This document shows positions 18,819-34,374 of a stretch of DNA of 64,000 nt, in pieces. Both the position numbers and the translations under genes were made by a program. The notes under the pieces were generated by a model. That model saw only the letters and a list, made by a program, of their open reading frames with translations, ran no database searches and had not been told where the DNA came from. Numbering within the stretch: position 1 is the first letter of the stretch; each line of letters starts with the position of its first letter. The stretch comes from an uncultured Aliiroseovarius sp. (GTDB lineage: Bacteria > Pseudomonadota > Alphaproteobacteria > Rhodobacterales > Rhodobacteraceae). Location: assembly GCF_947497285.1 (NCBI RefSeq), contig NZ_CANMFT010000001.1, positions 310,001 through 374,000 of the forward strand. The letters are read 5' to 3'.

Positions 18819-19667
18819 ATGGATGTATCGCTTGAGAACGAGCTGGACGCGCACCAGAAAGAGGTCCAGCTTTTTCTGGGAAAATGCTTACTGCGGCTTC
18901 AACAATACGAGCGGCTCATTAAAGCTATCGTGGCTGATCACAAAGTATCAGGGCGTGCCCACAGCATAGAGCAAGTTCGAGCGGCGCGAGCGGAGGAAAC
19001 CGCTCGCAAGACACTTGGCTCGCTAGTTGGTGAACTCCTCGGTTCTTATGTCGTTCCCATTGACGAAAGTGCACCCCAAGATACATCCTCAAGCTTGCCT
19101 GAAGATGGCGCTTGGATTGCCCTAGGGACGCAATTGAGCCTTCCAGTTTCGGAATTTGCGCGAATAGATCAGGAACTCAAAGAGCTTGTAACCTTGCGCA
19201 ACGATTTGGTTCATCACTTTTTCGACCGCTTTGACATGCAAAGTGTGGATGGTTGCGTTGTGGCTAAAGAGTCCTTGAGCGTGTCGCTCAACCGTATCGA
19301 AGATCATTTCCAGCAGCTGTCGGAGTGGGCGAAGGATATGATTCGAATGCGCAGGGCGTTGTCTGGCGTGATCCAATCTGACGCATTTAGAGATAAGGTA
19401 TTCAACGGTGTTTCCGAAGACCAGGCGCTGGAATGGGAACATAGTGGCGTTGTCATAGCACTCAGGGAGGCATTTTCGGTTCTGTCGGTCGACGGGTGGG
19501 CATGTGTCGACGAGGCTGGTAGATGGATAGCTGCACGGAATCCCGAACAAACTCCATCGAAGTACGGCTGCAAAAGTTGGCGCCAGGTTGTACATGAAGC
19601 GTCCATTTTTAAGCTGAAGTATTTTGAGAAGCAGGGTCGGCGATCCGCGTTCTTTCAAGAAAAATAA
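18819..19667 (+). CDS. HEPN-like plus LOTUS (OST-HTH) domain protein
   Basis: This is a 282-residue soluble protein. The N-terminal two thirds is helical and contains LRNDLVHHFF at residues 126-135, the R-x4-H pattern of HEPN nucleases (Arg127, His132). The C-terminal 75 residues (about 205-282) follow the OST-HTH/LOTUS pattern, with DGWACVDEAG...SKYGCKSW and a final strand RRSAFF. LOTUS domains bind RNA, including G-rich or structured RNA, and HEPN domains are often RNases in toxin and defence systems, so an RNA-targeting function is a reasonable inference. It stands alone, 150 bases after the secreted-protein gene, with an AGG box about 10 bases before the ATG. Confidence 0.68.
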   Translation: MDVSLENELDAHQKEVQLFLGKCLLRLQQYERLIKAIVADHKVSGRAHSIEQVRAARAEETARKTLGSLVGELLGSYVVPIDESAPQDTSSSLPEDGAWIALGTQLSLPVSEFARIDQELKELVTLRNDLVHHFFDRFDMQSVDGCVVAKESLSVSLNRIEDHFQQLSEWAKDMIRMRRALSGVIQSDAFRDKVFNGVSEDQALEWEHSGVVIALREAFSVLSVDGWACVDEAGRWIAARNPEQTPSKYGCKSWRQVVHEASIFKLKYFEKQGRRSAFFQEK

Positions 19668-19684
19668 CGTGTCAAAGGTCGCGT

Positions 19685-19891
19685 GTGTGCTGGGCGGTTT
19701 ATGTAGCGTTGGTCGGAACACCAGATCATTCTGATGGCGTTCCAAGGGTGGACTCACTTAGAGCTCGCACAAAACTCGCCCAGCGACGCGCATTGCTGGA
19801 GACGCCTTTGATGACCGAGGCCTTCGAGGAGGCGCGCGAGTTCTCCAATGACTATTCTCGCGTTTTGGAGATCAACAGCATTGAGCGATAA
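19685..19891 (+). pseudogene. remnant of a second copy of the 18395-type secreted protein
   Basis: The last 35 codons of this 68-codon frame read QRRALLETP...EAFEEAREFSNDYSRVLEIN, which resembles the C-terminus of the protein at 18395-18673 (ERREVFVQAREFSEAYARLLELE). The N-terminal half has no matching signal peptide or Cys residues and looks like unrelated sequence. I read it as a truncated, diverged paralogue left downstream of the HEPN-LOTUS gene. Confidence 0.5.
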
Positions 19892-20203
19892 CGATGGTCA
19901 ACCGCGCCACCGTGAAAATGGCATTTAACAATTCTGATGACCCTATTTTCTCTGCGGAAGCTGCCTGAACTTGTCTAGCGTAAGACTTACAAATCTTCGT
20001 TAAGTCACTGGCGTCAGTTAAGTCGACGGCACTTGCTTCATCGGCTTAACGCTGTTCTACAACGCAAATTCCGGCGCAACAGTGCGCATCCACAAAGTCA
20101 TTCAACATTGAACTCGAATTAGACCGTCGAGCAATTGGCCGAGGGAGTACTGGCGACGAAACGCCCTCTAAACGCTCGCGTCAAAGTACATGCGCGAGGG
20201 CGA
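19892..20203. other. non-coding stretch between two cargo genes
   Basis: About 310 bases without a credible gene, lying between the plus-strand remnant and the 3' end of the minus-strand HEPN gene. It contains two GTTAAGTC copies near 19997-20022 and GGCTTAACG near 20042, short repeats with no clear meaning. No T-tailed hairpin was seen. Confidence 0.4.
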
Positions 20204-20869
20204 CTAGGCTACCACCGGATAAAATGGTTTACCCCAGTTTTCATTTGGATTGTCCATCATGATGTCGATGAACACAGGCATAAGAAACCCAAGGATTTCA
20301 GCCCCGTCCCGAACCTGCGCCCGGTTCACACCGCTGTTCCAGGTCGACCCTCCGTGAACGAGCTGATTGCGCAGGACGTACAACCGGTCGAAGACGAAGC
20401 TCAGGACGCGTGTGCTGTCGCCCGCTTGGAACGACGATGCAAAGGAGCGGGCGGAGGCGGCAAAGCGATCCTCCCAATCCTCTAACCCATCAATCCCATT
20501 GTGGTATTGCCAGAAGGGATTGAAGACATACCGGTTTTCCATGAGCATTCGAACCGGGCCTGAAAACCGCTGCCACAGCGCCTTGTAGATGCGTTGGTCT
20601 CGATCAAAGGCGACCAGCCGACCGAAGTATTCCACGAAAGCAGCGCGCTCTCCTGGGGCGACCGCCTGAAACTCCTGCTCGTCGGCGTAGGCAGCGTTGA
20701 ATGCGATCCAAAGGAAAATGAAACGCGCATCATCATCCTCGCCGCAGGCTTCGGCTCGACCGACCCAACTGATGGCGCGATGGGCGCGCAGTCCCATGGT
20801 TTCGGGGAAGCTTTCGCGAATGGCGCGTTGTTTTGCTTTCAGGGCTGCATGGTCAAAACCGTTTGTCAT
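20204..20869 (-). CDS. HEPN-like protein co-transcribed with the WYL regulator
   Basis: This 221-residue helical protein carries LRNQLVHGGS near the C-terminus, giving an R-x4-H motif at Arg167-His172, which is characteristic of HEPN-type proteins. Such proteins are often RNases, or substrate-binding partners, in toxin and defence systems. The ATG at 20869 lies 22 bases after the WYL gene stop, so the two form an operon divergent from the helicase operon. A longer start at 20932 would overlap the WYL gene. Whether it is catalytic is not shown by sequence. Confidence 0.65.
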   Translation of the reverse strand: MTNGFDHAALKAKQRAIRESFPETMGLRAHRAISWVGRAEACGEDDDARFIFLWIAFNAAYADEQEFQAVAPGERAAFVEYFGRLVAFDRDQRIYKALWQRFSGPVRMLMENRYVFNPFWQYHNGIDGLEDWEDRFAASARSFASSFQAGDSTRVLSFVFDRLYVLRNQLVHGGSTWNSGVNRAQVRDGAEILGFLMPVFIDIMMDNPNENWGKPFYPVVA

Positions 20870-20891
20870 AGTAATTTCCTGTTCGATATCG

Positions 20892-21875
20892 TCATGGCAG
20901 GGCGTCGAAATCCGACCTCTGGTGGCCCGCAATCAATTCGCGCAACCCTGCGGGCGCCAACACGTCCACCTTGTCGCCCCATTGATAAAGATGCCATGCC
21001 ATTTCCAGCCAACCCGCTGCTTTGAACCTGACGATCAGGCTGCCATCGTCCTGAGGCTCGACAACTTGGGTTGGGTGGAAACGGAATTCGGCGGCGCGCT
21101 CAGCGGCTTCAGGTGTGAAGCGCCACACGACTTCGCCGTATTGTTCGGGGTCTTGATAGACACCAAACGCCTGAGCGGCATAGGATTCTAGAGAGAAACC
21201 CGGGGCCAGCTGAAAGCTTTCGTTCAGAGCCTCCGCCTCATGAATCCGATCCATGCGGAAATTCAGAATGTCTTCTCCACGCGAGGGTTGACGTGCGACG
21301 AGATAGCTGCGGTGCCCCAGCAGTATACCGTGTGGCTCAATCACACGCTGCGTAGCACCCTGAGTCCCATAGCAGACGCGCAGCCGGAACGGACCGCGCA
21401 GCGCTTCGATGACAGCATCTGTCACGGCAGGCTTCAGTGTGACGGTCGGGCCGGGGCGCGTGACCTGGCCCAATCCAGCCAGCACTGCCTCTGCATCGGC
21501 TTCCGACCGAAGCGCGTCCCTTGGTTTCAAACGCGCCAGCAGCCCGTCGCGAAGATCCTCCAGAGCACGTGAATGCCGTATTCGCCCTTCAGCGCGCGCA
21601 GTACGTGCCGCAATTTCCAGCGCCTCGATCGCCGTTTCCTGCCGGGGCTGCAGTCGGTCTGGCAAGGGTGTGTCCATCCGCCAGTATCGCCGTCTTTCTG
21701 CGTCGTCTGCGGTCGAAACGTTCACGAAAGTTGCTTCGAGAGCCTCAGTCATCCGTTGAGCGGTGCGATGCGAAACATCAAATTCAGCGCAAATGTCCTC
21801 GAGACTGACACCGCCCCGGCGGGATGCAGCCATTTGAGCGAGGCGAAGCAGATCCTGCGCTTTGGCGAAAGACAT
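20892..21875 (-). CDS. WYL-domain transcriptional regulator (BrxR/CapW/PafC-like)
   Basis: This 327-residue regulator has an N-terminal winged HTH (about residues 1-65, with SLEDICAEFDVSHRTAQR), a central WYL domain (about 140-235, with GILLGHRSYLVAR) and a C-terminal WCX-like segment (about 250-325). WYL proteins of this build repress bacterial defence islands and sense nucleic-acid ligands. The ATG at 21875 has GGAGG six bases upstream, which rules out the longer frame. It is divergent from the nuclease-helicase gene, with a 105-base intergenic region that probably holds its operator. Confidence 0.85.
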   Translation of the reverse strand: MSFAKAQDLLRLAQMAASRRGGVSLEDICAEFDVSHRTAQRMTEALEATFVNVSTADDAERRRYWRMDTPLPDRLQPRQETAIEALEIAARTARAEGRIRHSRALEDLRDGLLARLKPRDALRSEADAEAVLAGLGQVTRPGPTVTLKPAVTDAVIEALRGPFRLRVCYGTQGATQRVIEPHGILLGHRSYLVARQPSRGEDILNFRMDRIHEAEALNESFQLAPGFSLESYAAQAFGVYQDPEQYGEVVWRFTPEAAERAAEFRFHPTQVVEPQDDGSLIVRFKAAGWLEMAWHLYQWGDKVDVLAPAGLRELIAGHQRSDFDALP

Positions 21876-21901
21876 TTGACCTCCATGCCAGAAATTGACA
21901 C

Positions 21902-21938
21902 CCTCGTAAGGTATTGATGAACTTACAATCTGTCGAGG
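21902..21938. promoter_or_regulatory. candidate WYL operator in the divergent promoter
   Basis: The 105-base gap between the WYL gene and the helicase gene contains an inverted repeat GTAAG (21906-21910) / CTTAC (21922-21926) and a wider one, CCTCG (21902-21906) / CGAGG (21934-21938). Their centres differ by 4 bp, so only one may be real. The position suits autorepression plus control of the divergent operon. Confidence 0.4.
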
Positions 21939-21980
21939 TGATTCCCTTGGAGATTGATTTGCATTTGTAATGGAGTAGTC

Positions 21981-24900
21981 ATGAGGGATCTCGACGGCCG
22001 CATCTTTCTGTCCGCCACGGATCTCATGCGCTTCATGGGCTGCGCACATGCGACCACCCTTGATCTGGCACATATGCGCGGAACGGGTCCAGAGCCGGGA
22101 GAAGACACCGAGGACGCAGCACTGTTGCAAAAGCAGGGCGATGCGCACGAGGCGGCGCATCTAGCGCGCCTCAAGGAGGCCGGACGCAAGGTCAAGGAAA
22201 TCGAGCGTGGCAAACTTGGTGATAACGCCGAGGCCACGCGCGCAGCGCTTGCCGCAGGTCCGGATGTCGTGTTTCAGGGCGCGTTTCTGTCGGGGAACTG
22301 GGGCGGCTGGTCTGATTTCCTGGAGCGTGTCGAGACACCTTCGGCGCTCGGACCGTTCAGCTATGAGGTGGCCGACACTAAGCTGAAACGGCGGGCCGAT
22401 CCCAAACATGTGCTTCAGCTGGTTCTGTATTCCGACCTGTTGGCGGAAATTCAGGGTGTGGTACCTACGTTCGCGCATGTCGAATTGGGCGACGGTACCC
22501 GCGCGACACTGCGCCTGGCGGACTACTCTGCCTATGCACGCATGGCCCGCACACGGCTGGAAGCTTTCGTTGCCGATCCGCAGCCGACACGCCCGGTGCC
22601 ATGTGCTGATTGCGGTCTGTGCCGTTGGGCCGAACATTGCAACAGCGTCTGGCAAGAAGAAGACAGTTTGTTCAATGTCGCCAACATCAGTCGTGGTCAG
22701 GTAAAGAAACTTGAAGCCGCTGGCGTTCACACCTTGGAGGCTCTCTCAACGCTGGATCACCCAATCCGCGGTATGGCTGAAAACACGCTGGCCCGTCTGA
22801 TCACTCAGGCCCGCCTGCAACAGGCCCGCAAAACTGGGGAGCCAGATTTCGAACTGCGGGCACCCGAGCCTGGCAAAGGCTTCGATCTCCTGCCTGAACC
22901 CCAGATGGGCGACCTGTTCTACGACATTGAAGGCGATCCTCACTACGAGGGCGGCCTCGAATATCTGCACGGGATCTGGTTCGACGGGCAATTCGAGGCG
23001 TTCTGGGCCCATGACCAGGATGCCGAGGCGCGGGCATTGTCCGACTTGCTGGCGTTCTTTCGCGCGCGGATTTCGCAATACCCCACTGCGCGCATCTATC
23101 ACTACGCGCCATACGAGATCACAGCGCTCAAACGCCTGACCACGAAATATGGGATCGGTGAGGCTTTCCTCGACCGGCTGCTAAGGGAACGCCGCTTCGT
23201 GGATCTGTTCGCCGTGGTACGCGGCGGGCTGATCGGATCGGAGCTGAACTATTCCATTAAGTCGATGGAGGCTTTCTACGACCGAAAGCGCGACGGCGAG
23301 GTCAAGACGGCGGGTGGCTCGGTCGTTGCCTATGAGCGCTGGCGCGAAACGCAGGACCAGCAGATTCTGGACGAGATCGAGGATTACAACCGCGTCGACT
23401 GTATCTCGACCGAGGAATTGCGCGATTGGCTGGTTGGCATCCGGCCTGTCGGCCCTTGGCCGACTCTTGCCCCGGATGCAGGCGATAAAGAGGTCGAAGA
23501 GGATGCCGATACGCAAGCATTGCGGAACATGCTCACAGAGTCCGGCTTGCCCGAGGCGCGGCAGGATTTGTTGTTCAACCTCGGCGTCTTCCACAGCCGT
23601 GAGGTGAAGCCTGCGCAATGGGCCGTGTTCGATAGTGCTGCGAAGGACGAAGATGATCTGATCGACGATCTCGATGCGCTTGCGGGGCTCAAGGCAGCGG
23701 GTCCAGTGGAGCCTGTCAAGCGATCCTTCGCGCGCAGCTACACCTATCCTGAACAGGAAACGAAGCTTCGAAGCGGTAAAAAGGCGACGGTTCCGGTGTT
23801 CGACAGCCCACCTACGACGGTCGGGATCGAGTCCATGGATCGCCGCGCCCGTCATATCACCGTCAAGGCAGGTCCGGGCAAGGCCGATCTTCTGGCGGAT
23901 CAACTGACGTTGCATCCGGACTGGCCAATACAGACAGGCGTCATTGCCGGTGCTTTGCGTGATGTGATCGCCGATCAGTGCGGCGCGCGCCGGTACACGG
24001 CCGTGGATGACCTGCTGTCGCGCACAGCGCCGCGCCTCCGCTCCGGGCCAAGAGGTGATCTTTTGGGCGAAGAAGATCCTGTTGCAGGCACCATTGCCGT
24101 GGTGAATGACATGGATGGAACGGTCCTGCCGATCCAGGGACCGCCCGGGACCGGTAAGACCTATGTGAGCGCGCGCGCGATCCTGTCACTTGTCCGCCAA
24201 GGGTTCCGCGTTGGAGTCGCTTCGAACAGTCACGAGGCGATCCGCAATGTTCTGATGGGCTGTCTTCTCGCCCTCGAGGATGACGATCCCGACATCACGT
24301 TGGAAAACGCCGAACTGGCGCACAAGGTTGGCGGCGGTGAGGATGGGTATCCCGACGGTTTTTCCGGGATTACCCGCGCCCAGTCGAACGACGACCCTGC
24401 GCTGTCAGACGCCAATGTCGTGGGCGGCACGGCGTGGTTTTTTTCCCGCGGCGAGAATGTGCAGGCTTTTGATTGGCTGTTCGTCGACGAGGCGGGCCAG
24501 GTTGGCTTGGCAAACATGGCTGCCATGGGTCGTGCCGCGCGAAACATCGTCCTTGTGGGTGACCCGCGCCAGTTGCCGCAGGTCATCCAGGGGGCACATC
24601 CCGAGCCTGCGAACCTGTCGTGCCTGGATTGGATGCTCGGAGAGCATGCGACGGTTCCAGCCGAGCGGGGCGTCTTCCTTCCCACATCCCGGCGCATGCA
24701 CCCGGAGGTCTGTCGGTTTGTCTCGGAGCAGGTGTATGAAGGCCGACTGACCAGCCATCCTGATACGGCTAACCAGTGCGTGACAGGCACGGCGCTCCCC
24801 GAAGCTGGAGCTTTCTGGGTGCCGGTTCCGCATGAGGGCAATGCACAGATCGCACAGGAAGAAGTCGCCGCTATTGGCAAAACCGTCACTGACCTCCTTG

Positions 24901-25274
24901 ACAGCAGCTGGACGGAGAAGGATGGCAGCACGCGGTCAATGTGCGAGACGGACATCATCGTCGTCGCCCCGTATAACGCACAGGTAAACGCTCTCAGGGA
25001 TGCACTTCCATCGGGTGTCCGTGTCGGAACCGTGGACAAGTTTCAGGGACAAGAGGCACCGATCTGCCTGGTTTCCATGACCGCATCCTCCACCGAAGAA
25101 ACTTCGCGCGGGATGGAGTTCCTGTTTTCGCTGAACCGCATCAATGTCGCGGTCTCACGTGCCAAGGGCCTCGCATTGGTCTTTGGATCGTCCCGATTGC
25201 GCGAAGCGAAGTGCAATACTGTTGAGCAAATGCAGCTGGTGAATACGCTGTGTGCTCTGCCATTGATCAAATAG
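21981..25274 (+). CDS. RecB-like nuclease / DEDD exonuclease / SF1 helicase fusion
   Basis: This 1097-residue protein has three parts. An N-terminal PD-(D/E)xK nuclease of the TM0106 (Cas4/RecB-like) type has Asp112 and Asp132-Thr-Lys134 and a cysteine cluster C208, C211, C214, C220 that could hold an iron-sulphur centre. A middle RNase-H-like DEDD domain (about 310-500) has FYDIEGDP and YNRVDC. A C-terminal SF1 Dna2/Upf1-type helicase has Walker A GPPGTGKT at 720-727, Asp836-Glu837-Ala-Gly, GDPRQLPQ, and motifs VDKFQGQE and NVAVSRAKG. GGAG precedes the ATG at 21981 by about 6 bases. It leads a defence-like operon with the DUF4357 and DUF3883 genes. Confidence 0.88.
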   Translation: MRDLDGRIFLSATDLMRFMGCAHATTLDLAHMRGTGPEPGEDTEDAALLQKQGDAHEAAHLARLKEAGRKVKEIERGKLGDNAEATRAALAAGPDVVFQGAFLSGNWGGWSDFLERVETPSALGPFSYEVADTKLKRRADPKHVLQLVLYSDLLAEIQGVVPTFAHVELGDGTRATLRLADYSAYARMARTRLEAFVADPQPTRPVPCADCGLCRWAEHCNSVWQEEDSLFNVANISRGQVKKLEAAGVHTLEALSTLDHPIRGMAENTLARLITQARLQQARKTGEPDFELRAPEPGKGFDLLPEPQMGDLFYDIEGDPHYEGGLEYLHGIWFDGQFEAFWAHDQDAEARALSDLLAFFRARISQYPTARIYHYAPYEITALKRLTTKYGIGEAFLDRLLRERRFVDLFAVVRGGLIGSELNYSIKSMEAFYDRKRDGEVKTAGGSVVAYERWRETQDQQILDEIEDYNRVDCISTEELRDWLVGIRPVGPWPTLAPDAGDKEVEEDADTQALRNMLTESGLPEARQDLLFNLGVFHSREVKPAQWAVFDSAAKDEDDLIDDLDALAGLKAAGPVEPVKRSFARSYTYPEQETKLRSGKKATVPVFDSPPTTVGIESMDRRARHITVKAGPGKADLLADQLTLHPDWPIQTGVIAGALRDVIADQCGARRYTAVDDLLSRTAPRLRSGPRGDLLGEEDPVAGTIAVVNDMDGTVLPIQGPPGTGKTYVSARAILSLVRQGFRVGVASNSHEAIRNVLMGCLLALEDDDPDITLENAELAHKVGGGEDGYPDGFSGITRAQSNDDPALSDANVVGGTAWFFSRGENVQAFDWLFVDEAGQVGLANMAAMGRAARNIVLVGDPRQLPQVIQGAHPEPANLSCLDWMLGEHATVPAERGVFLPTSRRMHPEVCRFVSEQVYEGRLTSHPDTANQCVTGTALPEAGAFWVPVPHEGNAQIAQEEVAAIGKTVTDLLDSSWTEKDGSTRSMCETDIIVVAPYNAQVNALRDALPSGVRVGTVDKFQGQEAPICLVSMTASSTEETSRGMEFLFSLNRINVAVSRAKGLALVFGSSRLREAKCNTVEQMQLVNTLCALPLIK

Positions 25275-25291
25275 AATGAAAGACGGAATTC

Positions 25292-25621
25292 ATGAGAGAG
25301 AACGGTTGGTTTGTGATGCGTCCGCAGAAGGCTCAAGCTTATGGTAGGCCGGAAGGTGACGGCTTCCTTGTCCGCAAAGACTCGACGGCGATGCGCGATG
25401 GCTCCCCTAGCGTGAAGCGGGATCGCGAGGAGCGTGACCGTCTGGTTCGCGAGGGAATCCTCATCCCAGACAGTGATCCTGACTTGTATCGTTTTTCACG
25501 AGATCACCTGTTTCCAAGCGCGAGCATGGCTGGCGGCGTGGTTAAGGACGGTAATTGCAGCGGACCGCAGACTTGGCGCCGCAGCAAGGACGGGAAACTC
25601 TCAAGGAGCTTTCGTGAATAA
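25292..25621 (+). CDS. small DUF4357-domain protein
   Basis: This 109-residue protein follows the DUF4357 pattern: GDGFLVRKDS, EERDRLVREGIL, a YRFSRDHLFPSAS stretch and VVKDGNCSGPQTWR. DUF4357 is usually found at the C-terminus of nucleases or restriction-system proteins; here it stands alone. It lies 17 bases after the helicase gene and 38 bases before the giant ATPase gene, so it is part of that operon and may be a small DNA- or RNA-binding subunit. That role is inferred. Confidence 0.72.
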   Translation: MRENGWFVMRPQKAQAYGRPEGDGFLVRKDSTAMRDGSPSVKRDREERDRLVREGILIPDSDPDLYRFSRDHLFPSASMAGGVVKDGNCSGPQTWRRSKDGKLSRSFRE

Positions 25622-25659
25622 TATTTCCATATATCGCTCAGAAAGATGAGGCTATTTAA

Positions 25660-28600
25660 TTGAACCTGTCCACCGATATAGCGTCCCACAGCCTTTCCGA
25701 ATCTCTGAAGACCAAGGCCCGCAATGCTCTTTCGAACGCACTCGATGCGCATCGGAAGGAGCTGTCGACCTATGAAAGCCTAAAGAATTTGGGAGAAGTC
25801 ATTGGGACTGAATACGGTGACCGAGTTCTTTTTGAGCTTATCCAGAATGCGCACGATGCTCACGAAATTGGTGAGAATGGTGCGATCACGATCAAGTTTG
25901 TCAAAATATCGGACACTGAAGGTTACCTTTTTGTGGCCAACCGAGGGCGTGGTTTCAAAGAGCGTGATGTGAATGGAATCATGAACTTGGCGACCAGTGG
26001 AAAAGAGATCGGCGAGGGGATCGGCAACAAGGGTCTCGGCTTTCGCAGTATTGAGGCGATCACTGATGATGTGCGAATCTACTCGCGATCGCAGGACCCA
26101 GCGTCGAACTCGTTTGACGGTTACTGTTTCCGTTTTTCTCAACCTGGTGAGATACGTGACATCATTCTTTCCGAGCTGCTCGATCAAGAAGTTAGGGAAG
26201 ATGAAGCGGATCAGATCTCGCAGACAATCCCTCGATACCTGGTGCCGCAACCGCTAGCTGAAGTCCCTCCCGAGGTCGAACGCTTCGCGACTGCCGGCTA
26301 TGCGACGGTTGTAGTTGCTCCTCTGCGATCCACGTCAGCGGTGGCTCTGGTGGGAAAACAAGTCGACGAGATCGCAAACCTGGAACACCCCCTTCTCCTT
26401 TTTCTCGATCGTATCGCGGAGGTCCGCATAGACGTTGAAATCGAAGGAAAAAGAACGGGTAGCCGTCGCCTGACCAGACGCCAGAAAATTTTACGGGAGG
26501 GGGGGCGTCCGGGGAACCCGCGGATCTCTGCAATTGACGTCGGAGAGCGGCGTCGCTTCCTCCTGGTCCAGCAGGAGGTCGAGAAGGAACGGGTTCTTGA
26601 TGCCGTAAGAGAAAGCATCGACCGAGCCCCCGCTTTGAAACGTTGGTTGGACTGGAAGGGGCAACCATCTGTTTCGGTTGCAGTAGGGATATCCACCGCA
26701 GCCATTTTGAACGGACAACTCTACAACTTTCTGCCAATGGCAGCAGAGGCCGGATCGCCGCTCTTGGGGCACATAGACGCTCCCTTTTTTGCAGACATCG
26801 ACCGACGCAACATTGAACTGGATCTTCCGCTCAACAGTATCCTGATGGAGGCTGTCGCAGAGACCTGCCTTTCTGGGGCTCTAGCTGTGGTAAATGAGCA
26901 GATAGATGTTCCCGGTCGCAGTGTCTTTGACCTGATTGCGTGGACCGGAAGTGCTGCTAGGAATCTTGATAACGCCGTCCGGGTTGCCGACTTGCAATTA
27001 GAAGACCTTAGCTTTGTTCCAATCATTCCGACCAATGACGGCGAAAGCTGGTCAACGATCAATGAAGTCACCATCTGGCCCGAGGTCAAATTCGCGCTAC
27101 TGAAGTCGCGCGAAATAGTAAAGCATGTCGGAGCGCACCTCACTTCAAGCGAGCTGGAGAGCCAGCGGCTTGAACGTCTGCGCGAGATGGCCGGACGCTG
27201 TTTGGGTCGCTATGGCTGGCAGTATTCTCGCCTGCCTTCACCTGATGAGATCCCGGTTTGGGCGGAAGTCTATGCGAGATCTCTGATCGAACGGTCCGCA
27301 AAGCCGCTAACGTGGGCAAAATTCTACAAGGATCTGGTCGCGCTCTGCGAGGCTTCTGGTGTGAACTTAGATTGCCTCGACGGTACCGAGGTTCTTCTCG
27401 ACCGGGCTGGGAAACTGCGCTCGGCCGGTGGACATGAGGAGGGCGATCGGCGCGGTCTTTACGTTCGCGGCGCAAGTGAAATCGGCAAGCGCAAGAAGGG
27501 AAATGTTCCTCTACCACCATCCTCCCTCACCAGAGGGTACCGCTTTTTCGACGAGAAGATCCCTCTGTCCGACGAAACCCTGAATGCTCTGTCTGATGCT
27601 GGACTTGTCCGGCAGTTTGATCCGCTAGAAGCGCTTTCCGGTTTGGGTACAGCGGTGGGCAAGACGCCTAGCGAAAAGAGGCGGATGGACGCTCTCGATT
27701 GGGCGTTTCGAGTTTGGGATGCGGCGGGCAAGAGTGCGGAAGCCGCAGTCAAAGATGCCAACTTGCACGTGCCGACAATCGGGGGGTGGCTGCCAGCAAC
27801 CGAGGCCGTTTTCTCAGGCACATGGACTGAAATTGGAAAGCGTCTGGAAGCCTTCCTTAGCGAGGCTTCCGAGTATTCACCGGATTGCCGGCGCTCGAGA
27901 AACCAGCTTGTCAAACCACTAAAAGAGTGGGTTCTGCCGATTGCAGAAGGCAACCGAAAATGGGGTGCCTTTCTGGATCTCTTGGGCGTGAGCGATGGTC
28001 TGAAAGAATTAGCATCCGGGGTTAAGAAAAGAGGGTCGCCCGCGTACCATTGGGACAATCTTTTGCGAAATGGGGATGCCAACCTAGGGCTTGGGAAAGA
28101 GTGGACAAAGCTGGCTCGGCAGACATCCTTTTATCATCCATACACTGAAGACTATACGCTTAAGGGAGATTTCTGGCGACTGCCGGGACAGATTGATTAC
28201 GGTGAGTTTCCAGACCACCTGCGCGAGGCGTTCTATGAATTGCTTGTCCACCATATCGCGCTTCACCGCAGCAAATTCTTTTCTGCTAGGATCGGGCGCT
28301 ATCGTCGATCGGAACGTGATTGGGATGAGCGCCGCATTGTCACGCCTTTAGGTGCCTTCTTGCGGTCCGAGGAGTGGCTGCAGGGAGAGATGCGCGGAGA
28401 GCGCATGTTCTTATCACCGAGCCAATGCTGGGCATCGAGAACAAAGAGACCGGGTGTTCCGGCATTCATGCCGCGTCTCTCGGACAACGCGAGGGTTCTC
28501 ATTGACCGGGACGAAGTCGCCGAAATTGCATTTGGCGAGGGGCTCGGGCTTCTAGATTGGGCCAGCCACGAAACAGCCGCGCTTCGCCTCGTTGCCTTGG

Positions 28601-30990
28601 CAAACTGCTGCGAGAAACTTCAGTCTGGAGATATCGCAACGTTTCGACGCCAATATAGTCGGGCTTGGGCAGAAGTCGCCGAAAGCCACGCCGAATTGCC
28701 ACCCAATCTCCCGCTTGCCGTCAATCGTTTTGGAAACTTGATCCGGATCGAAGGTGACGATGGCACCCAGACTAAAGTGATCCTCGTCGAAAACGCGCAA
28801 GGCTTTGAGGCGCGGGCGCTTTCCGCAGCAGGCATTGCAGTACTTGAGCTGGGTGAATTGGACCTCGGGGTCATCGAAAAGAGCTTAGGGCAGATTGAGG
28901 CATACTCGGCCGAGAAACTGGATCGTGACTCAGTTCGATTGCTGGTGGACGGCTCGGTTTTCGTACCTTCGGTCGACGACGAGTATCTGGTGTCAATGGG
29001 GCTGGATTGGCTTCCTGAAATTGCAGTTATTGCCAACGAAATGATCGGCGAAAACCTAGAGCGAGGTATCCTCCAAACGACACTCGACAGCCGAATTAGG
29101 TCGATCAGGGTTCGGAGGTGCAGATCGATTTCTCTGACAGTGGCTGGCCAGGAAGTGGCGAACGGCAGTCACATGCAGTGGTACGCCTATCGCGATGAAG
29201 CCAACCCGACGCTCATACTGACGGACGGTATCACAATTGACTGGCCTCGACTGGCAAAGGGCCTTGCGGCCGAACTCTCGAAACTTATCCACGCTCGACT
29301 TCGATCTCTCGAGTTGGCCCTTCTTCGGCTTGCGCCGGGACACCCTGATGGCACTATTGATCGACCTACCGAAATCGAACTCGCTTCTGCGCTTGGATGT
29401 GATGCTAGAATAATCGAAGACATGCGTGCAGGGATGCGGACTGACCTAGCGCACGTACTTCACTTGGTCATTCCGGTCGTCGCATACTTTGAAAATGTCG
29501 ATCTTGCTCGGGACCTTGCAGATGCCGCCAAGGATCAAGGCGCTGAATTTAAACTTCGGGTTTGGCTGGAGGCGCATCTTTCAGCGGAGTCTCCTGCTGT
29601 CGCCGACCTGCTCGCGGCATGTGAGGATAATCCTGATCGGCGGTCAATTGCGGCAGCGCTTGACCTTAACTACGGACAGTTCAACCGAGTGCTCCTGTCG
29701 CTCGGTGAGGAAACCCTATCAAGTGACGTGGAATTGCGAGCCACCTTCGAAGCTTTTTTGCGTGAGATGGCGCCCACGTTAAGGGACCGACTACGGCGGC
29801 TGCATCTAGATGACTACCGGCTCGGTAAAGACCTTTCGACTTACCTTTCAAGACGCGAACTCAAATTCATCCAATTTGACCCAGCTTGGGTTGTCGACTT
29901 TGAGACGCTCGACCGACAGATGGTCGTCGAGCATGTGGAGACGTCCTTTGCCGAGGTGTTGGGGATGGTGCCGCAAGTTGAGCTTCCGCCTTTCGAGAAG
30001 ACGATCAGCGAGAACCGCAAAGTGGTTCGCGCCTTTGCGGGCGAAGCCAAACCCGTAATAGGGGCGTGGTGCCGCAAGAACCATATTGATCTTCCGGAGG
30101 TCTGGGAAAGAGGAGAGGCACAGGAGGTCGTGCGCTTGGTCGAGAATGCAGGCCTGCTTGACTTCGATGTGATCAACTCGGACCGTGTCGCAGCTCTCTG
30201 CGAGCGCGCCGGTATCTGGCCTGATGATATGCCTGCAAGGATTGATCCAGAAAGCCTCGGGCTGGACGAAAGCGCTGTGCGCGAGGAGCAAGAACGGAAG
30301 GTTAGAGAGCAACAAGAGCGTGACCGTCGGAAGCGGATCATCCAATTTGCCGGGCAAGACCTTGATTCAGGTGATCCCTCATTTGCCGCAGCCATGCAGA
30401 ACATTGCCGAGGCCGCGATGGCATCCGACGATGGCTGGTTCGCGCGGAGTCGTCAGCGAACCAGGTTGGTGCCATTTGATGGGGCGTCGAGATCGGACGC
30501 CGATGGCGGCAACGGCAGGGGAGGCAAACGGGGGCAGCGCACCGCCCGACTGACAGAGACGCAGAAGGTCGCAATGGGCGTCGCCAGTGAATGGTTGGCC
30601 TATCAGTACCTAAAGCGACGGTTTCCCGACGCCGTCGACGAGAGTTCATGGGTATCGGAGAATAGAAAGAAGTTCTTTGGCGGCGGCGAAGGTGATGACT
30701 CAGCCGGCTACGATTTTCTGGTACAGACACCGACGGTTGATTGGATGTTTGAGGTGAAGTCCACTTTGGAGGACGGCTGCGAATTCGAACTGACCTCCAA
30801 CGAACTTCGCGTCGCTAGTTCCGCCTCACGAACCGGCCGCAGGCGATATCGCATTCTCTATGTTCCCTATGTTTTCTCGCCCGAAAACTGGTGCGTTTTC
30901 GAACTGCCAAACCCGATGGATAAGGAAACACAGGCTCAGTTCTCCGTCGTTGGACGCGGATCGCTTAGATTACGCTTTGAGCGCCGGTAA
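25660..30990 (+). CDS. giant GHKL (sacsin-like) ATPase with C-terminal DUF3883 nuclease-like domain
   Basis: This is a 1776-residue protein. The N-terminal HSP90/sacsin-type GHKL ATPase shows the N-box ELIQNAHDA (Glu59, Asn63, Asp66), GRG at 96-98 and the GNKGLGF lid motif at 122-128. The C-terminal DUF3883 domain (about 1620-1745) has Asp1685 and Glu1698-Val-Lys1700 in a PD-(D/E)xK-like arrangement, so nuclease activity is plausible. The roughly 1300 residues between show no motif I recognise. The start is TTG at 25660, directly after an in-frame stop, with GATGAGG upstream. It ends the WYL-controlled operon. Family members occur in defence islands; a defence role is inferred. Confidence 0.85.
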   Translation: MNLSTDIASHSLSESLKTKARNALSNALDAHRKELSTYESLKNLGEVIGTEYGDRVLFELIQNAHDAHEIGENGAITIKFVKISDTEGYLFVANRGRGFKERDVNGIMNLATSGKEIGEGIGNKGLGFRSIEAITDDVRIYSRSQDPASNSFDGYCFRFSQPGEIRDIILSELLDQEVREDEADQISQTIPRYLVPQPLAEVPPEVERFATAGYATVVVAPLRSTSAVALVGKQVDEIANLEHPLLLFLDRIAEVRIDVEIEGKRTGSRRLTRRQKILREGGRPGNPRISAIDVGERRRFLLVQQEVEKERVLDAVRESIDRAPALKRWLDWKGQPSVSVAVGISTAAILNGQLYNFLPMAAEAGSPLLGHIDAPFFADIDRRNIELDLPLNSILMEAVAETCLSGALAVVNEQIDVPGRSVFDLIAWTGSAARNLDNAVRVADLQLEDLSFVPIIPTNDGESWSTINEVTIWPEVKFALLKSREIVKHVGAHLTSSELESQRLERLREMAGRCLGRYGWQYSRLPSPDEIPVWAEVYARSLIERSAKPLTWAKFYKDLVALCEASGVNLDCLDGTEVLLDRAGKLRSAGGHEEGDRRGLYVRGASEIGKRKKGNVPLPPSSLTRGYRFFDEKIPLSDETLNALSDAGLVRQFDPLEALSGLGTAVGKTPSEKRRMDALDWAFRVWDAAGKSAEAAVKDANLHVPTIGGWLPATEAVFSGTWTEIGKRLEAFLSEASEYSPDCRRSRNQLVKPLKEWVLPIAEGNRKWGAFLDLLGVSDGLKELASGVKKRGSPAYHWDNLLRNGDANLGLGKEWTKLARQTSFYHPYTEDYTLKGDFWRLPGQIDYGEFPDHLREAFYELLVHHIALHRSKFFSARIGRYRRSERDWDERRIVTPLGAFLRSEEWLQGEMRGERMFLSPSQCWASRTKRPGVPAFMPRLSDNARVLIDRDEVAEIAFGEGLGLLDWASHETAALRLVALANCCEKLQSGDIATFRRQYSRAWAEVAESHAELPPNLPLAVNRFGNLIRIEGDDGTQTKVILVENAQGFEARALSAAGIAVLELGELDLGVIEKSLGQIEAYSAEKLDRDSVRLLVDGSVFVPSVDDEYLVSMGLDWLPEIAVIANEMIGENLERGILQTTLDSRIRSIRVRRCRSISLTVAGQEVANGSHMQWYAYRDEANPTLILTDGITIDWPRLAKGLAAELSKLIHARLRSLELALLRLAPGHPDGTIDRPTEIELASALGCDARIIEDMRAGMRTDLAHVLHLVIPVVAYFENVDLARDLADAAKDQGAEFKLRVWLEAHLSAESPAVADLLAACEDNPDRRSIAAALDLNYGQFNRVLLSLGEETLSSDVELRATFEAFLREMAPTLRDRLRRLHLDDYRLGKDLSTYLSRRELKFIQFDPAWVVDFETLDRQMVVEHVETSFAEVLGMVPQVELPPFEKTISENRKVVRAFAGEAKPVIGAWCRKNHIDLPEVWERGEAQEVVRLVENAGLLDFDVINSDRVAALCERAGIWPDDMPARIDPESLGLDESAVREEQERKVREQQERDRRKRIIQFAGQDLDSGDPSFAAAMQNIAEAAMASDDGWFARSRQRTRLVPFDGASRSDADGGNGRGGKRGQRTARLTETQKVAMGVASEWLAYQYLKRRFPDAVDESSWVSENRKKFFGGGEGDDSAGYDFLVQTPTVDWMFEVKSTLEDGCEFELTSNELRVASSASRTGRRRYRILYVPYVFSPENWCVFELPNPMDKETQAQFSVVGRGSLRLRFERR

Positions 30991-31164
30991 ACTTGTTAGA
31001 AGCAAAGAAAGTTCGCTCCCAGTCTCGTTTCCTCCACCAAAGTTCCAACGCCGTTGCCCCCTGAATTTCCTCTTCTGGGTATCCACATCTCGACCAACGG
31101 CAGCTTTTCTGCAGCTCTTGGCTATTCGTGCCTGACGCAACAGCGGACAGTCCCGTTCTTGACG

Positions 31165-31368
31165 TTAGCTGCGGTCAGGATCAAGGTTTGTATCTTGCTC
31201 AGACATGTTTGGCGTACCAGTTGGGTTTTTCTCATACGGCTCATAAAGCGCTGCCTGCGTTTCGCCGTTGTCCCACTGGTACAGTAGGCCGATTTCTTCG
31301 CCTGTATTGATGCACGTAATGCGGCCGATGGCTTCGGCCGTTGTGCGCACACTCTCAAATTCGGGCAA
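31165..31368 (-). CDS. small protein paired with the Xre regulator
   Basis: This 67-residue acidic protein starts with TTG at 31368, two bases after the regulator stop, with a good ribosome-binding site (GAGAGGGG). No motif is recognised. The tight coupling to an Xre regulator could mean a small effector, antitoxin-like or anti-restriction partner; nothing in the sequence decides this. Confidence 0.5.
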   Translation of the reverse strand: MPEFESVRTTAEAIGRITCINTGEEIGLLYQWDNGETQAALYEPYEKNPTGTPNMSEQDTNLDPDRS

Positions 31369-31370
31369 AA

Positions 31371-31583
31371 CTAGCCCCTCTCGTTAAACAATTCCTTGGG
31401 ATCGACCTCGAGAGCATCCGCGATCCGCTCCAGAACATCGATTGATGCTGAATTTTTGGCGAGTTCGATCTCGCTGATATAGCTGCGATCCACATCCGCA
31501 GCTAACGCTAGTTGTTCTTGGCTTAATCCTCTGGAACTTCTGAGATTCCGGACATTTAACCCTACTCGTTCCCGTAATTTCAT
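31371..31583 (-). CDS. Xre-family transcriptional regulator
   Basis: This 70-residue single-domain Cro/C1-type HTH protein has a clear helix-turn-helix (LSQEQLALAADVDRSYISEIE, about residues 20-40, shown in part) and GLNVRNLR at the start. Such short Xre proteins resemble restriction-modification controllers and phage repressors. It is divergent from the secreted-protein gene at 31741. Two perfect palindromes lie upstream (31620-31673), so it probably represses itself and may control the neighbouring genes. Confidence 0.85.
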   Translation of the reverse strand: MKLRERVGLNVRNLRSSRGLSQEQLALAADVDRSYISEIELAKNSASIDVLERIADALEVDPKELFNERG

Positions 31584-31619
31584 GGCCTCTATTCGGCCAG
31601 ATCACAAGAACTGCTCTAC

Positions 31620-31673
31620 GGAATATATTCCACAAAACGCGCGCGAACCTCGCAAATCATATGCTCGCATATG
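31620..31673. promoter_or_regulatory. palindromic operators upstream of the Xre gene
   Basis: GGAATATATTCC (31620-31631) is a perfect 12-bp palindrome, and CATATGC-TC-GCATATG (31658-31673) is a perfect 7-bp inverted repeat with 2-bp spacer. They lie 37-90 bases upstream of the Xre ATG and 67 or more bases before the divergent gene at 31741, the right place for autoregulation. Confidence 0.6.
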
Positions 31674-31740
31674 GTGTAAAGGCGGAGGTGATTGTAAAGT
31701 TTCAATAATGCAGTAATGTAGTCAAAAGGCAATTATTGAT

Positions 31741-32382
31741 ATGTGGTGCAGACTTTTCAGAAAATGGACCGCCGGAACTACTCTGGCTCTGCTTTCAACC
31801 CTGTCTCCGCAGGCGGCGAAAGCCTATCAGGTCGACTGCGCCATTCTGCTTTGCCTAGCAGGTGGTTGGCCTGCGTCAGCAGAATGTGCCCATGCCCGCG
31901 CCGTGTTTATCCGCCGGATCACGCCCTGGCCAATTGAGCCGCCATTGCAAATTTGGCGTTGTCCGATGGGTGTTTCTGAGCGTGCGCCTTTGCAAAGCAC
32001 GGCCTCAAGGATCTGGGAGGCCAGCGACCAATCAGGTCAGACGCTCGGCCAAGTCATTCAGGCACAGGTGGTCGAAGGCCGTGCCGATATCGACATCAGT
32101 GGCTTGGAATTCGATTTCGTGCGCTCGATCCGTGTCTGGGATGTACGACACTACAGTCATCGCGAACGTGGACGCGACGATGATTGCTCTGAGAGTTACA
32201 ACATGCGCCTCGGGTCCTACGGCGCGCAGGGCGAATTTGGCTGGCAACGCACGACACCAGCCGCCGCCCCGCGATGGGTTTTGCCGACGCGACACTGTTC
32301 GTCATCAAATTGGAGGCGCGGGGTTGGCGTTGAATGGGAAGATCACGAGGGCAACCACGGATATGAGTGGGTGGCCTACTAG
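31741..32382 (+). CDS. secreted cysteine-containing protein of unknown function
   Basis: This 213-residue protein has a signal peptide (about residues 1-28, cut near AKA) followed by a cysteine-containing mature part starting YQVDCAILLCLAGGWP, with later Cys at WRCP and DDDC. It is likely periplasmic or outer-membrane associated. From memory, similar proteins are found near conjugation genes in Rhodobacteraceae plasmids, but I cannot confirm this or name the function. It lies between the Xre pair and the integration module. Confidence 0.6.
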   Translation: MWCRLFRKWTAGTTLALLSTLSPQAAKAYQVDCAILLCLAGGWPASAECAHARAVFIRRITPWPIEPPLQIWRCPMGVSERAPLQSTASRIWEASDQSGQTLGQVIQAQVVEGRADIDISGLEFDFVRSIRVWDVRHYSHRERGRDDDCSESYNMRLGSYGAQGEFGWQRTTPAAAPRWVLPTRHCSSSNWRRGVGVEWEDHEGNHGYEWVAY

Positions 32383-32384
32383 GG

Positions 32385-32690
32385 TTATTCGCCGATGTCT
32401 TTCATGCGTTCGGCGATATCGCCCGCAATGCGCTCATACAGGGCGGCTTGTTTGTCCCTTGGCGTTCCAGGCTTAGGGTTTCTCCGGCGGATGCGTTTGG
32501 CGAGCCAGAAGAGCAGCCGGGCCGCTGGATCCGACGTCGCATCCGGTTCTGCAGCCGGGTACTTCTCCTCAAGAGCGACGACGATTTCCTGAGACAGGCT
32601 GCGCCGGTTCAGTGTTGCATGCGTTTCCAGACGCTTCTTGAGCGCGGCAGGAAGCAAGAGTTTGAATTGGACCAAGGCTTCTTCTTTCAT
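32385..32690 (-). CDS. ribbon-helix-helix (Arc-like) regulator
   Basis: This protein of about 101 residues has an N-terminal strand-helix-helix (VQFKLLLPAALKKRLETHA, residues 6-24) typical of Arc/MetJ-type DNA-binding proteins, followed by a basic tail. The ATG at 32690 is preferred over one at 32732, which lies inside the tandem operators. It is divergent from the second RHH gene and so probably a repressor of the integration module. Confidence 0.75.
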   Translation of the reverse strand: MKEEALVQFKLLLPAALKKRLETHATLNRRSLSQEIVVALEEKYPAAEPDATSDPAARLLFWLAKRIRRRNPKPGTPRDKQAALYERIAGDIAERMKDIGE

Positions 32691-32701
32691 GATTGCATGA
32701 T

Positions 32702-32741
32702 GGACAATATTTGTCCTCAATGATATGGACATTTTATGTCC
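32702..32741. promoter_or_regulatory. tandem GGACA-N5-TGTCC operators
   Basis: Two inverted repeats, GGACAATATTTGTCC (32702-32716) and GGACATTTTATGTCC (32727-32741), 25 bp apart, lie between the divergent RHH genes at 32690 and 32760. Tandem boxes of this kind fit cooperative RHH-repressor binding and would control both the repressor and the RHH-xis-int operon. Confidence 0.7.
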
Positions 32742-32759
32742 TTTTGTTGAGGTGTAAAT

Positions 32760-32921
32760 ATGAAGACAACCCAGTTCAAACTTAACCTTCCAGCGGACGT
32801 GAAAGCCTGGCTTGAAGAGGAGGCTGTGCGGAATTTACGCTCACAGGGCGCTCAGGTGGTGTCTTGTTTGCGGGCAGCCATGTCGCGGCAAGAAGCCGTG
32901 GGTGAGAGGGCTAAGAAATGA
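32760..32921 (+). CDS. small ribbon-helix-helix protein of the integration operon
   Basis: This 53-residue protein has the RHH pattern TQFKLNLPADVKAWLEEEA at its start and a second helix carrying SQGAQVVSCLRAAM. It may be a repressor or an excision cofactor that binds the upstream GGACA boxes. Its stop overlaps the next ATG (ATGA at 32918-32921), so it opens a three-gene operon with the excisionase-like and integrase genes. It lies just after the operator boxes. Confidence 0.72.
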   Translation: MKTTQFKLNLPADVKAWLEEEAVRNLRSQGAQVVSCLRAAMSRQEAVGERAKK

Positions 32922-33175
32922 GCTCAAGCCATATTCAGCTGATTCCGACCCCAGAGCTCGCGCTTCTCTTTGGTTACAGTGAGCCGAGCGCGTCCTTTTA
33001 TGATTTCTGCCGTAGGACGGGTATCGCTCCGGTGCCAGGGCGGCGCGGGTGGTATGACCCGAAACTCATTCGCGCGCGATTGGATGCTGTTCAGGGAATC
33101 AGCGCAGCTGACCGCGAAGCTACTTCCCAACCGAGCCTTGTTGCACAGCGGAGAGCGCGCCGTGCCCAGAAGTAA
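32918..33175 (+). CDS. excisionase-like DNA-binding protein
   Basis: This 85-residue protein has an HTH-17/winged-helix-like core (ELALLFGYSEPSASFYDFCRRTGI, residues 14-37, shown in part) and a GRRGWYDPKLIRARLD segment, typical of excisionase and MerR-like small proteins. The basic tail ends in RRARRAQK. It overlaps the RHH gene by 4 bases and the integrase gene by 14. In this position it is probably the recombination directionality factor. Confidence 0.68.
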   Translation: MSSSHIQLIPTPELALLFGYSEPSASFYDFCRRTGIAPVPGRRGWYDPKLIRARLDAVQGISAADREATSQPSLVAQRRARRAQK

Positions 33176-34238
33176 CCTTCCCAAGGGCGTCCACCGTGTC
33201 CGGCGCAAGGTCGTGTCTGGTGTTCGCTACCATTTCTATGCTTGGCGGGGCGGCCCCAAATTTTGGGAAGGAACGGACCCAAACCCCAAAGATCCCGAAT
33301 TCTATCATGCGTTTTCTCAGTGCGGCAGGCCCGCGAGTCCTGCCGAATATCTGACGACTCACTTGGTCGACGATTTTCTGTCCAGTGCGTCCTTGCCAAA
33401 AGCCGAGCGTTCGAAGGCCGATATCCGCAAGTGGCTGGAACTGTTTCGCGAGGAATTTGGGGCAGATCCCGTCGCGATGTTCGAAGAGCGTGCCTCTCGA
33501 GGCGAGGTCAACAATTGGCGCAAAAAGTGGCTTCATTCGCCCAAGCAACACGATATGGCGGGCACCCATGTGACGCGCGTCCTCAATTGGGCGGTGGAAG
33601 AGGGGAAGCTGAAAGAGCATCACTGCCACAAGCTCAAGAAGCTCTACCAATCGAACCGCACAGAAATCATCTGGACGAGCGGCGATATCGCCCAGTTCAA
33701 CAAACATGCACCCAAGTGGGTCCAAAGGATCCTGACCGCAGGATGCGAAACCGGTTTACGTGCAGCTGATCTGGTTCAGGTCAAGATGGACCAATTCGAA
33801 GACACGCCGCACGGCAAGCGCCTTCGTTTCAGGACCAGCAAGCGCGGCCAGATCGCATATATCCCGGCCACTTCAGCCCTTGAGAAATTGATCGCAGAGA
33901 CGCCGGAAGGCCAAGAGGTGCTGCTGGTATCAGAGCTTGGCAGGCCTTTGACGGCCCGTTGGGCATCGAACCAGATTACCAAGTGGCGACGCGAAGCTCA
34001 GATCCCCCCTTGGATCGACGGTAGAGAGAAGACTCTGTCTGACACGCGCGGGACAGCGGCGACAAGATTGCTGAATGCCGATCTGTCTTTGCGCCAAATC
34101 GCAGTTCTGATGGGGTGGTCGGTTCGCTACGCGGCGCAGGTTATCGAGCATTATGCGCAGGTTAGCCCAGACGAAAGCGATGCAGTTTTGCGCAAGCTCA
34201 ATCGAGCAAAATCACTGTCTCAAGACTCAAAAATGTAA
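33162..34238 (+). CDS. tyrosine recombinase (integrase) of the element
   Basis: This 358-residue site-specific recombinase would integrate and excise the element at tRNA-Cys. The catalytic set is Arg200 (GLRAADL), Arg296 (SDTRGTAATR) and Tyr331 (IEHYAQV), with a Trp in MGWS in place of the usual second histidine. The residue before Arg296 that is usually His in the HxxR box is Ser293. A GTG at 33162 is the likely start, as it overlaps the excisionase gene by 14 bases. The gene ends 62 bases from the tRNA 3' end. Confidence 0.9.
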   Translation: MPRSNLPKGVHRVRRKVVSGVRYHFYAWRGGPKFWEGTDPNPKDPEFYHAFSQCGRPASPAEYLTTHLVDDFLSSASLPKAERSKADIRKWLELFREEFGADPVAMFEERASRGEVNNWRKKWLHSPKQHDMAGTHVTRVLNWAVEEGKLKEHHCHKLKKLYQSNRTEIIWTSGDIAQFNKHAPKWVQRILTAGCETGLRAADLVQVKMDQFEDTPHGKRLRFRTSKRGQIAYIPATSALEKLIAETPEGQEVLLVSELGRPLTARWASNQITKWRREAQIPPWIDGREKTLSDTRGTAATRLLNADLSLRQIAVLMGWSVRYAAQVIEHYAQVSPDESDAVLRKLNRAKSLSQDSKM

Positions 34239-34300
34239 ACGCCCCTGTAAACGCGGGGCCTCAAACACGGCAAGGAGTGATCTAAGTGATTGTTTTTAAA

Positions 34301-34330
34301 TGGAGGCGAGTACCGGAATCGAACCGGTGT
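34301..34330. other. probable right attachment site (tRNA-Cys 3' end)
   Basis: Integrases next to a tRNA 3' end usually recombine within it, so the element boundary should lie in this part of tRNA-Cys. I found no second copy of this sequence within the window, so the left junction is expected outside it, left of position 1. The exact core length cannot be set without the other end. Confidence 0.55.
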
Positions 34331-34374
34331 ACACGGATTTGCAATCCGCTGCGTCACCACTCCGCCAACTCGCC
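34301..34374 (-). tRNA. tRNA-Cys (GCA anticodon)
   Basis: The minus-strand sequence starts GGCGAGTTGGCGGAG, has the anticodon loop with GCA (CGGATTGCAAATCCG), a T-arm with GGTTCGATTCC, and ends in an encoded CCA (TGGA on the plus strand at 34301-34304). The 74-base length and cloverleaf stems fit. Its 3' end faces the integrase gene, the usual arrangement for a tRNA used as attachment site. Confidence 0.95.

Follow-up and report, generated by a model that had tools for sequence, protein, structure and literature searches.

A core made up of genes for a HEPN-like protein, a WYL regulator and a TM0106-family nuclease-helicase, found at positions 20211-25258 of a 64,000-nucleotide stretch from an uncultured Aliiroseovarius sp. 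(contig NZ_CANMFT010000001.1, positions 310,001 to 374,000; hereafter the window), appears to move as a unit between species on a mobile element, and the large partner encoded downstream of it is repeatedly swapped for unrelated defence proteins. As reconstructed by sequence comparison, the core consists of a WYL gene divergent from the gene of a single protein joining TM0106, DEDD and superfamily 1 (SF1) helicase parts, often with a HEPN gene behind the WYL gene, and the downstream same-strand gene has been replaced repeatedly by unrelated restriction or defence modules. The preferred reading, to which a probability of roughly 0.55 is assigned, is a mobile, WYL-controlled anti-invader system in which a constant Dna2-like core would act with an exchangeable partner and the HEPN protein would serve as an accessory RNase. 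It is supported by the linkage of the core genes, the shared borders of the conserved block, the exchange of partners, their one-sided coupling to the core, the conservation of catalytic residues and a conserved promoter site, and also by the defence surroundings, namely SspABC in the same element and BREX genes beside a distant relative.

A first-pass annotation of this DNA had proposed that the three core genes, a DUF4357 gene and a giant ATPase gene form one defence system matching none with a name. All five genes were recovered in the divergent layout that it described, using open reading frames and profile searches, and its assignment of a defence-type locus with an adjoining WYL gene is borne out, as is a HEPN/WYL/nuclease-helicase linkage, which is far above chance. 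It was mistaken in finding no named system for the giant protein, which matches TmtA of the Tiamat system over its full length in PADLOC, and it overlooked that three of the five genes are a constant unit.

The minus strand encodes the HEPN-like protein (20204-20869; 221 residues from its ATG), a putative RNase with the RX4H motif R167-N-Q-L-V-H172, and the WYL regulator (20892-21875), in which helix-turn-helix (HTH), WYL and C-terminal WCX domains were recognised using Pfam. The plus strand encodes the TM0106-family protein (21981-25274; TIGR03491), combining a RecB/Cas4-like nuclease, an RNase_H_2/DEDD domain and a UPF1/DNA2-like SF1 helicase, followed by a stand-alone DUF4357 protein of 109 residues (25292-25621; Pfam) and the 1776-residue TmtA (Tiamat-type) protein (25660-30990; PDLC03971), the presumed exchangeable module of the element. 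Intergenic gaps are 22 bp between the WYL and HEPN genes, 17 bp between the TM0106 and DUF4357 genes and 38 bp between the DUF4357 gene and that of the 1776-residue protein. The start codons of the WYL regulator, the nuclease-helicase and the 1776-residue protein agree with the annotation of Roseovarius indicus pRIdsm_01.

Conserved block and partner exchange

One scan for genome loci with the closest TM0106 relatives confirmed 199, of which the best 80 were taken, so that the sample leans to close relatives, and 6 plasmid loci were added. Partners were labelled by tblastn to reference modules with a coverage of at least 30% (the TmtA labels of L050 and L087, at only 25% identity, and of L057, at 26%, are weak), genes in the neighbourhood counts were called using a simple open reading frame caller, and WYL and HEPN genes were counted in the 73 of 80 genome loci that have at least 2.6 kb upstream.

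When 15 loci were compared using BLASTN, a block of 5.05-5.37 kb spanning the HEPN, WYL and nuclease-helicase genes was found at 84-89% nucleotide identity in five other genomes (L016, L018, L019, L020 and L022). Similarity ends within 7 bp of the HEPN stop codon, within 16 bp of the TM0106 end and, where DUF4357 is shared, within 40 bp of its end; the block extends to 25579 in the DUF4357 gene in L016 and L019, and L017, which holds a partial HEPN gene, shares from 20689 to the same point. The Roseovarius locus L010 shares 20759-31028 at 91%, the same partner included; its HEPN gene is also partial, being truncated beside an ISKra4 transposase (L010:9958-10209).

Downstream of the core, the commonest partner is an McrB-like AAA_5 protein (37 of 80 genome loci), with McrC recognised in most of these. 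TmtA partners occupy 14 loci, comprising seven of the L019/PDLC03964-like type, four of the window/PDLC03971-like type and three of the L030/PDLC03968-like type (L019 itself matches PDLC03964, and L017 and L030 match PDLC03968). The remainder comprises SbcCD-like proteins (6), a 2480-residue sacsin with a DrmD-like helicase further on (4), a 476-residue protein with a helicase (1), other genes (14) and partners lost at a contig end (4). The 'other' partners include HATPase_c_3 with Z1 (L029), Z1 with a C5-methylase (L054), a DEAD/MZB helicase (L071) and an AAA_5 protein (L070).

A fixed five-gene system was therefore rejected: apart from the window, just 4 of the 80 genome loci combine WYL, a full HEPN gene and TM0106 with DUF4357 and a TmtA from whichever family, and partners differ in most relatives. 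Those four (L016, L019, L047 and L077, from genera named Alexandriicola, Thalassococcus, Mesorhizobium and Sphingomonas) show the five-part layout with another TmtA family, of the PDLC03964 type; among 87 loci, the five genes with the window's own TmtA family were found in the window only. The proposal that five genes make one system thus fails as a fixed set, most relatives having another partner, chiefly McrBC, and holds for the HEPN-WYL-nuclease-helicase linkage. Likewise, rarity elsewhere and a match to a named system largely apply to the five-gene set and do not apply to the three-gene core.

Partner changes were counted by parsimony on a quick LG+G4 tree of 87 nuclease-helicases with 28 open forks, using the 68 rows whose partner has a name (7 labels) and leaving out 19 of the 87 rows ('other' 15, lost at a contig end 4). 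At least 22 changes are needed, a figure that none of 1000 label shuffles reached or undercut (minimum 24, mean 27.9), and the partner therefore follows the tree, but weakly, inheritance being clearest in the SbcCD clade. The partner differs in 21 of 52 pairs with core identity of at least 95% and in 32 of 53 pairs at 90-95%. Of 76 loci, 71 have the first gene of at least 100 residues after TM0106 on the TM0106 strand, and in 64 this gene begins no more than 150 bp away. On the other flank of the block, 33 of 64 loci have a co-directional next gene and 16 have one starting within 150 bp; for same-strand genes within 150 bp, the counts are 64/76 on the partner side versus 16/64 on the other flank (Fisher 1.2e-12).

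This one-sided bias in strand and spacing, with the block's own other flank as comparator, is taken as the main argument against simple island turnover. In the form of that alternative considered here, defence cassettes turn over at a recombination hotspot formed by the 3' end of the nuclease-helicase gene, and the core is a conserved landing pad and itself no partner, as would fit similarity ending at or near the same gene ends, the high rate of partner exchange and the variability of the flank beyond HEPN, also seen using BLASTN. However, it leaves unexplained both the one-sided bias and the full catalytic conservation of the core described below, and is judged distinctly unlikely.

Nuclease-helicase

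The nuclease-helicase matches TIGR03491 (E=1.3e-76, 258.5 bits against a cut-off of 97.45) with the nuclease residues kept. D121, D141, K143, Q155, Y159, D324, E326, E388, Y478, D482, K735, D845, E846 and R1069 (1106-residue numbering) are each present in 87 of 87 sequences, as are three clustered cysteines, the fourth being present in 79. The RecB, DEDD, SF1 and GHKL motifs in the proteins of this locus are taken in their usual meaning. The helicase part is matched by PDB chains of SMUBP-2, UPF1, SEN1 and DNA2. The protein thus resembles Dna2 in having a RecB/Cas4-like nuclease with clustered cysteines and a UPF1/DNA2-type SF1 helicase, but differs from it in carrying an extra DEDD exonuclease domain and in being prokaryotic and mobile. 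Mokosh (MkoA/MkoC) was considered and rejected: only the helicase part matches the PADLOC model of MkoA (PDLC03920, 8.7e-47; best aligned stretch 811-1094), and no other Mokosh model was matched among the nine proteins scanned. In the literature searched, the scope of which ended before subscription papers and outside preprints, no description of the core as a unit was found and no mention of 'TM0106 family', 'RecB-like putative nuclease' or 'TIGR03491', and 'TM0106' occurred only in corrosion papers.

CoCoNuT systems of types II and III combine McrBC with an SF1 helicase resembling UPF1, HEPN effectors being present in types II and III-A, according to their description (PMC11090510); in that text, DUF4357 appears among the McrB 'aliases' and the terms 'Cas4', 'DUF3883' and 'sacsin' occur 0 times. 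The present loci differ from CoCoNuTs in that the helicase carries a TM0106 nuclease and a DEDD domain, HEPN has a divergent gene of its own and McrBC is not the sole partner. Membership of the window in the CoCoNuT or McrBC systems was rejected, as no McrBC was found among the nine proteins scanned at 18819-34238.

WYL regulator and divergent promoter

A WYL gene divergent from TM0106 lies within 3 kb in 66 of the 73 genome loci, and the plasmid locus L015 also has one. BrxR and CapW are WYL regulators of defence islands, and the regulator in the window has the same build (HTH, WYL and WCX, divergent to an operon); its PADLOC matches are to CRISPR-associated WYL models (only partial or generic). 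The likeness to the regulators of defence islands (compare PMC9122601) extends to a candidate inverted repeat in the promoter, but the locus itself contains no genes of BREX or CBASS.

The divergent promoter of 105 bp holds TGCCAGAAATTGACACC at 21886-21902, a candidate WYL operator that includes a -35-like TTGACA; in the consensus of 43 aligned loci, half-sites TGTCA and TGACA form an inverted repeat about this element. An exact TGYCAGANATTGACACC match was found in 37 of 86 core loci, once each, and 38 of 38 matches, window included, lie within 1 kb upstream of TM0106; since the pattern was drawn from the same loci, these counts are descriptive and form no independent test. When the window was shuffled and up to 2 mismatches were allowed, a mean of 0.04 matches was expected.

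Linkage and assignment of the HEPN-like protein

An even sample of 384 genomes of the window's family (383 genera, its own genome included) was searched with thresholds of E up to 1e-3 for HEPN and E up to 1e-100 for TM0106. HEPN was found in 52 genomes, TM0106 in 37 and both in 32 (expected 5.0, Fisher 8e-28). All 28 pairs on the same contig lie within 9 kb, and 24 of these have the arrangement of the window, with HEPN upstream of TM0106 and on the other strand. Among the 73 genome loci, HEPN lies within 6 kb of TM0106 in 46 (43 at 90% length or more).

The HEPN assignment is the weakest of the five. The window protein has no Pfam match at E 0.1, reaching PF18735 (RiboL-PSP-HEPN) only at E=0.29, and no PADLOC match; the family profile has no match among PDB sequences at E up to 1. 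PF18735 matches 25 of 39 scanned family members at E up to 1, the best at 1.7e-5, and R-N-Q-[LI]-[VI]-H, a form of the RX4-6H motif, occurs in all 47 sequences examined, that of the window among them, from a set of 87 loci. Structure prediction gives an all-helical fold with a predicted local distance difference test score (pLDDT) of 78. A possible second RNase adjoins the locus at 18819-19667 (plus strand), where a protein of 282 residues has a C-terminal OST-HTH/LOTUS domain and, in its N-terminal half, an RNDLVH motif that appears HEPN-like by eye.

It is also conceivable that HEPN and WYL are a separate toxin-regulator pair, an abortive infection switch whose sole tie to the rest of the locus is the divergent promoter. 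HEPN does occur without TM0106 (13 of 44 strong matches lie in family genomes with no TM0106 match at E 1e-100), and WYL-TM0106 pairs occur with no HEPN nearby. However, HEPN lies inside the constant block, and when five HEPN relatives away from TM0106 were opened, two of the three that carry annotation still adjoin a nuclease-helicase pair, so that this alternative is considered somewhat unlikely and the preferred reading gains support from the same two relatives. One stands in line with a PD-(D/E)XK nuclease and UvrD-helicase pair, with WYL alongside (L150:5227-14422), and the other by a PD-(D/E)XK and UvrD pair, 3-8 kb beyond which come WYL and an SbcCD-like pair (L152:2170-16660); these arrangements are possibly a second HEPN-linked DNA-end system. 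The third annotated relative has neither arrangement alongside.

TmtA partner and DUF4357

The giant protein matches the PADLOC TmtA model PDLC03971 with E=0 and 1783 bits, its residues 1-1776 aligning to positions 1-1781 of 1782, and therefore belongs to the Tiamat family. Its N-terminus is a sacsin-type GHKL ATPase (NF047352, 8.2e-19) and its C-terminus is of the NOV_C/DUF3883 type (1e-5) with a PD-(D/E)XK-like motif. The N box and the G2 box (G[NA]KGLGF) are conserved in TmtA relatives; the G1 box reads N-x-G in 14 of 14 sequences shown, departing from the D-x-G usual in GHKL proteins. The G-[YF]-D-F...EVK motif is kept except in two PDLC03964-type rows, where the alignment breaks down. TmtA of the window type lies downstream of the core in the window, L010, L093 and L095 (35-92% identical) and, more distantly, in L050 and L087 (25%). 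In L144, the gene order is HEPN-WYL-TM0106-SbcD-SbcC followed by TmtA, and L136 holds a partial TmtA copy of 990 residues beside insertion genes.

Tiamat is reportedly a single-gene system. The window protein shares with it the end-to-end TmtA match and the retained sacsin/GHKL motifs, but here TmtA stands downstream of a WYL/TM0106 core, which other TmtA relatives do not have nearby (compared by PADLOC protein models). TmtA might accordingly be the whole defence, with the WYL, HEPN and nuclease-helicase genes an independent neighbour, concerned with DNA repair or element maintenance and joined to it by chance in an island. Relatives with no core close by agree with this: no WYL, TM0106 or HEPN is annotated within 8 kb of the plasmid relatives L137-L140 (24-27% identity), and no core genes were found by tblastn in the stretch taken around L141 (48%), L142 (36%) and L143 (25%). 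However, the L138 plasmid does hold a TM0106 relative 11.3 kb from its TmtA, the close same-strand spacing recurs in 64 of 76 loci, McrBC and other modules occupy the place that TmtA has here, and DUF4357 is found either at the junction or joined to the partner in one protein; an independent neighbour is considered unlikely.

DUF4357 is found at the junction of core and partner as its own gene or, in some relatives, as the N-terminus of the McrB-like protein, and it occurs in 8 of 14 genome loci with a TmtA partner versus 6 of 37 with an McrBC partner (Fisher 0.011). The window protein has a PADLOC match to PDC-S14 (partial or generic). Between core and partner, DUF4357 may act as a linker or confer specificity.

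Mobile element and surroundings

The 3' part of tRNA-Cys is repeated directly over 49 bp, with copies at positions 288408 and 344300 of the contig (G000:C1), 55.9 kb apart. The left copy precedes the window start by 21.6 kb and the right copy, a putative right attachment site, is at 34300-34348 of the window, within the tRNA-Cys gene (34301-34374, minus strand). A tyrosine integrase (32970-34238, plus strand) lies between the repeats, and the part of the element within the window carries relaxase, coupling protein and VirB4/5/10/11-type genes, suggesting that the locus is in a putative 55.9-kb integrative and conjugative element at tRNA-Cys. PADLOC matches to SspA, SspB and SspC (phosphorothioation defence) lie left of the window in the same element (G000:C1:296111-301661; L147:12112-17662).

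Beyond SspABC, in L148, genes for a DEAD helicase, an HSP90-like ATPase (MzaB match, 1.5e-16) and a phospholipase D-type protein follow. An ArdC-type anti-restriction protein (ArdcN and a zincin-like metallopeptidase) is encoded in the same element at L148:5522-6400. Between the TmtA and integrase genes, the window encodes a protein of 213 residues (31741-32382) with no Pfam, PADLOC or NCBIfam match and a weak ribbon-helix-helix-type protein (32385-32732).

Proposed mechanism and significance

In the proposed mechanism, the partner, here TmtA preceded by DUF4357, would recognise foreign DNA or make the first cut or nick in it, and the TM0106 nuclease-helicase would unwind, resect and degrade the DNA from the ends so created. 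The WYL regulator, occupying the conserved TGYCAGANATTGACACC site, would keep both arms low until released by a nucleic-acid ligand made during infection, the nature of the ligand being that generally attributed to WYL proteins. HEPN would act as a second-line accessory RNase, stopping growth or degrading transcripts should DNA destruction fail.

Several observations weigh against this reading. Neighbour exchange could be turnover in a defence hotspot with no partnership, and in 14 of 80 loci the downstream gene fits no recurring module; that of L055 is of the alginate-export type, and no clear partner was seen in L073, L076 or L092. A divergent WYL gene within 3 kb is missing in 7 of 73 loci. 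HEPN was not found within 6 kb in 27 of 73 and is therefore not essential, and a Foldseek search of its model against the PDB gave no match at E 0.001 or better. The predicted DUF4357 model (pLDDT 52) is too poor for use. Among five distant plasmid relatives at 38-52% identity, one lying by BREX genes and one by DUF4007 and cysteine desulfurase genes, only one has a divergent WYL by annotation, so that the design belongs to one subfamily.

The pattern itself is real and non-random, and unlike the five-gene claim it comprises a constant core with exchangeable, partly named modules, between which we infer a partnership from gene order and conservation. A wider proposal, held tentatively and at somewhat less than an even chance, is that the locus represents a defence 'chassis', in which one WYL/HEPN/Dna2-like core would serve at least seven modules (McrBC, three Tiamat families, Mre11/Rad50-like SbcCD, a giant sacsin with a helicase and a further helicase pair) that replace one another at a fixed junction in the operon, and DUF4357 would link core and module. 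If this is true, Tiamat and some McrBC systems would here be modules of a larger design and not complete systems, which would explain why TmtA and McrBC recur beside this TM0106 subfamily, and annotation of TmtA only would miss partner genes in these elements. More generally, several named defence systems would share one DNA-degrading core and swap behind it.

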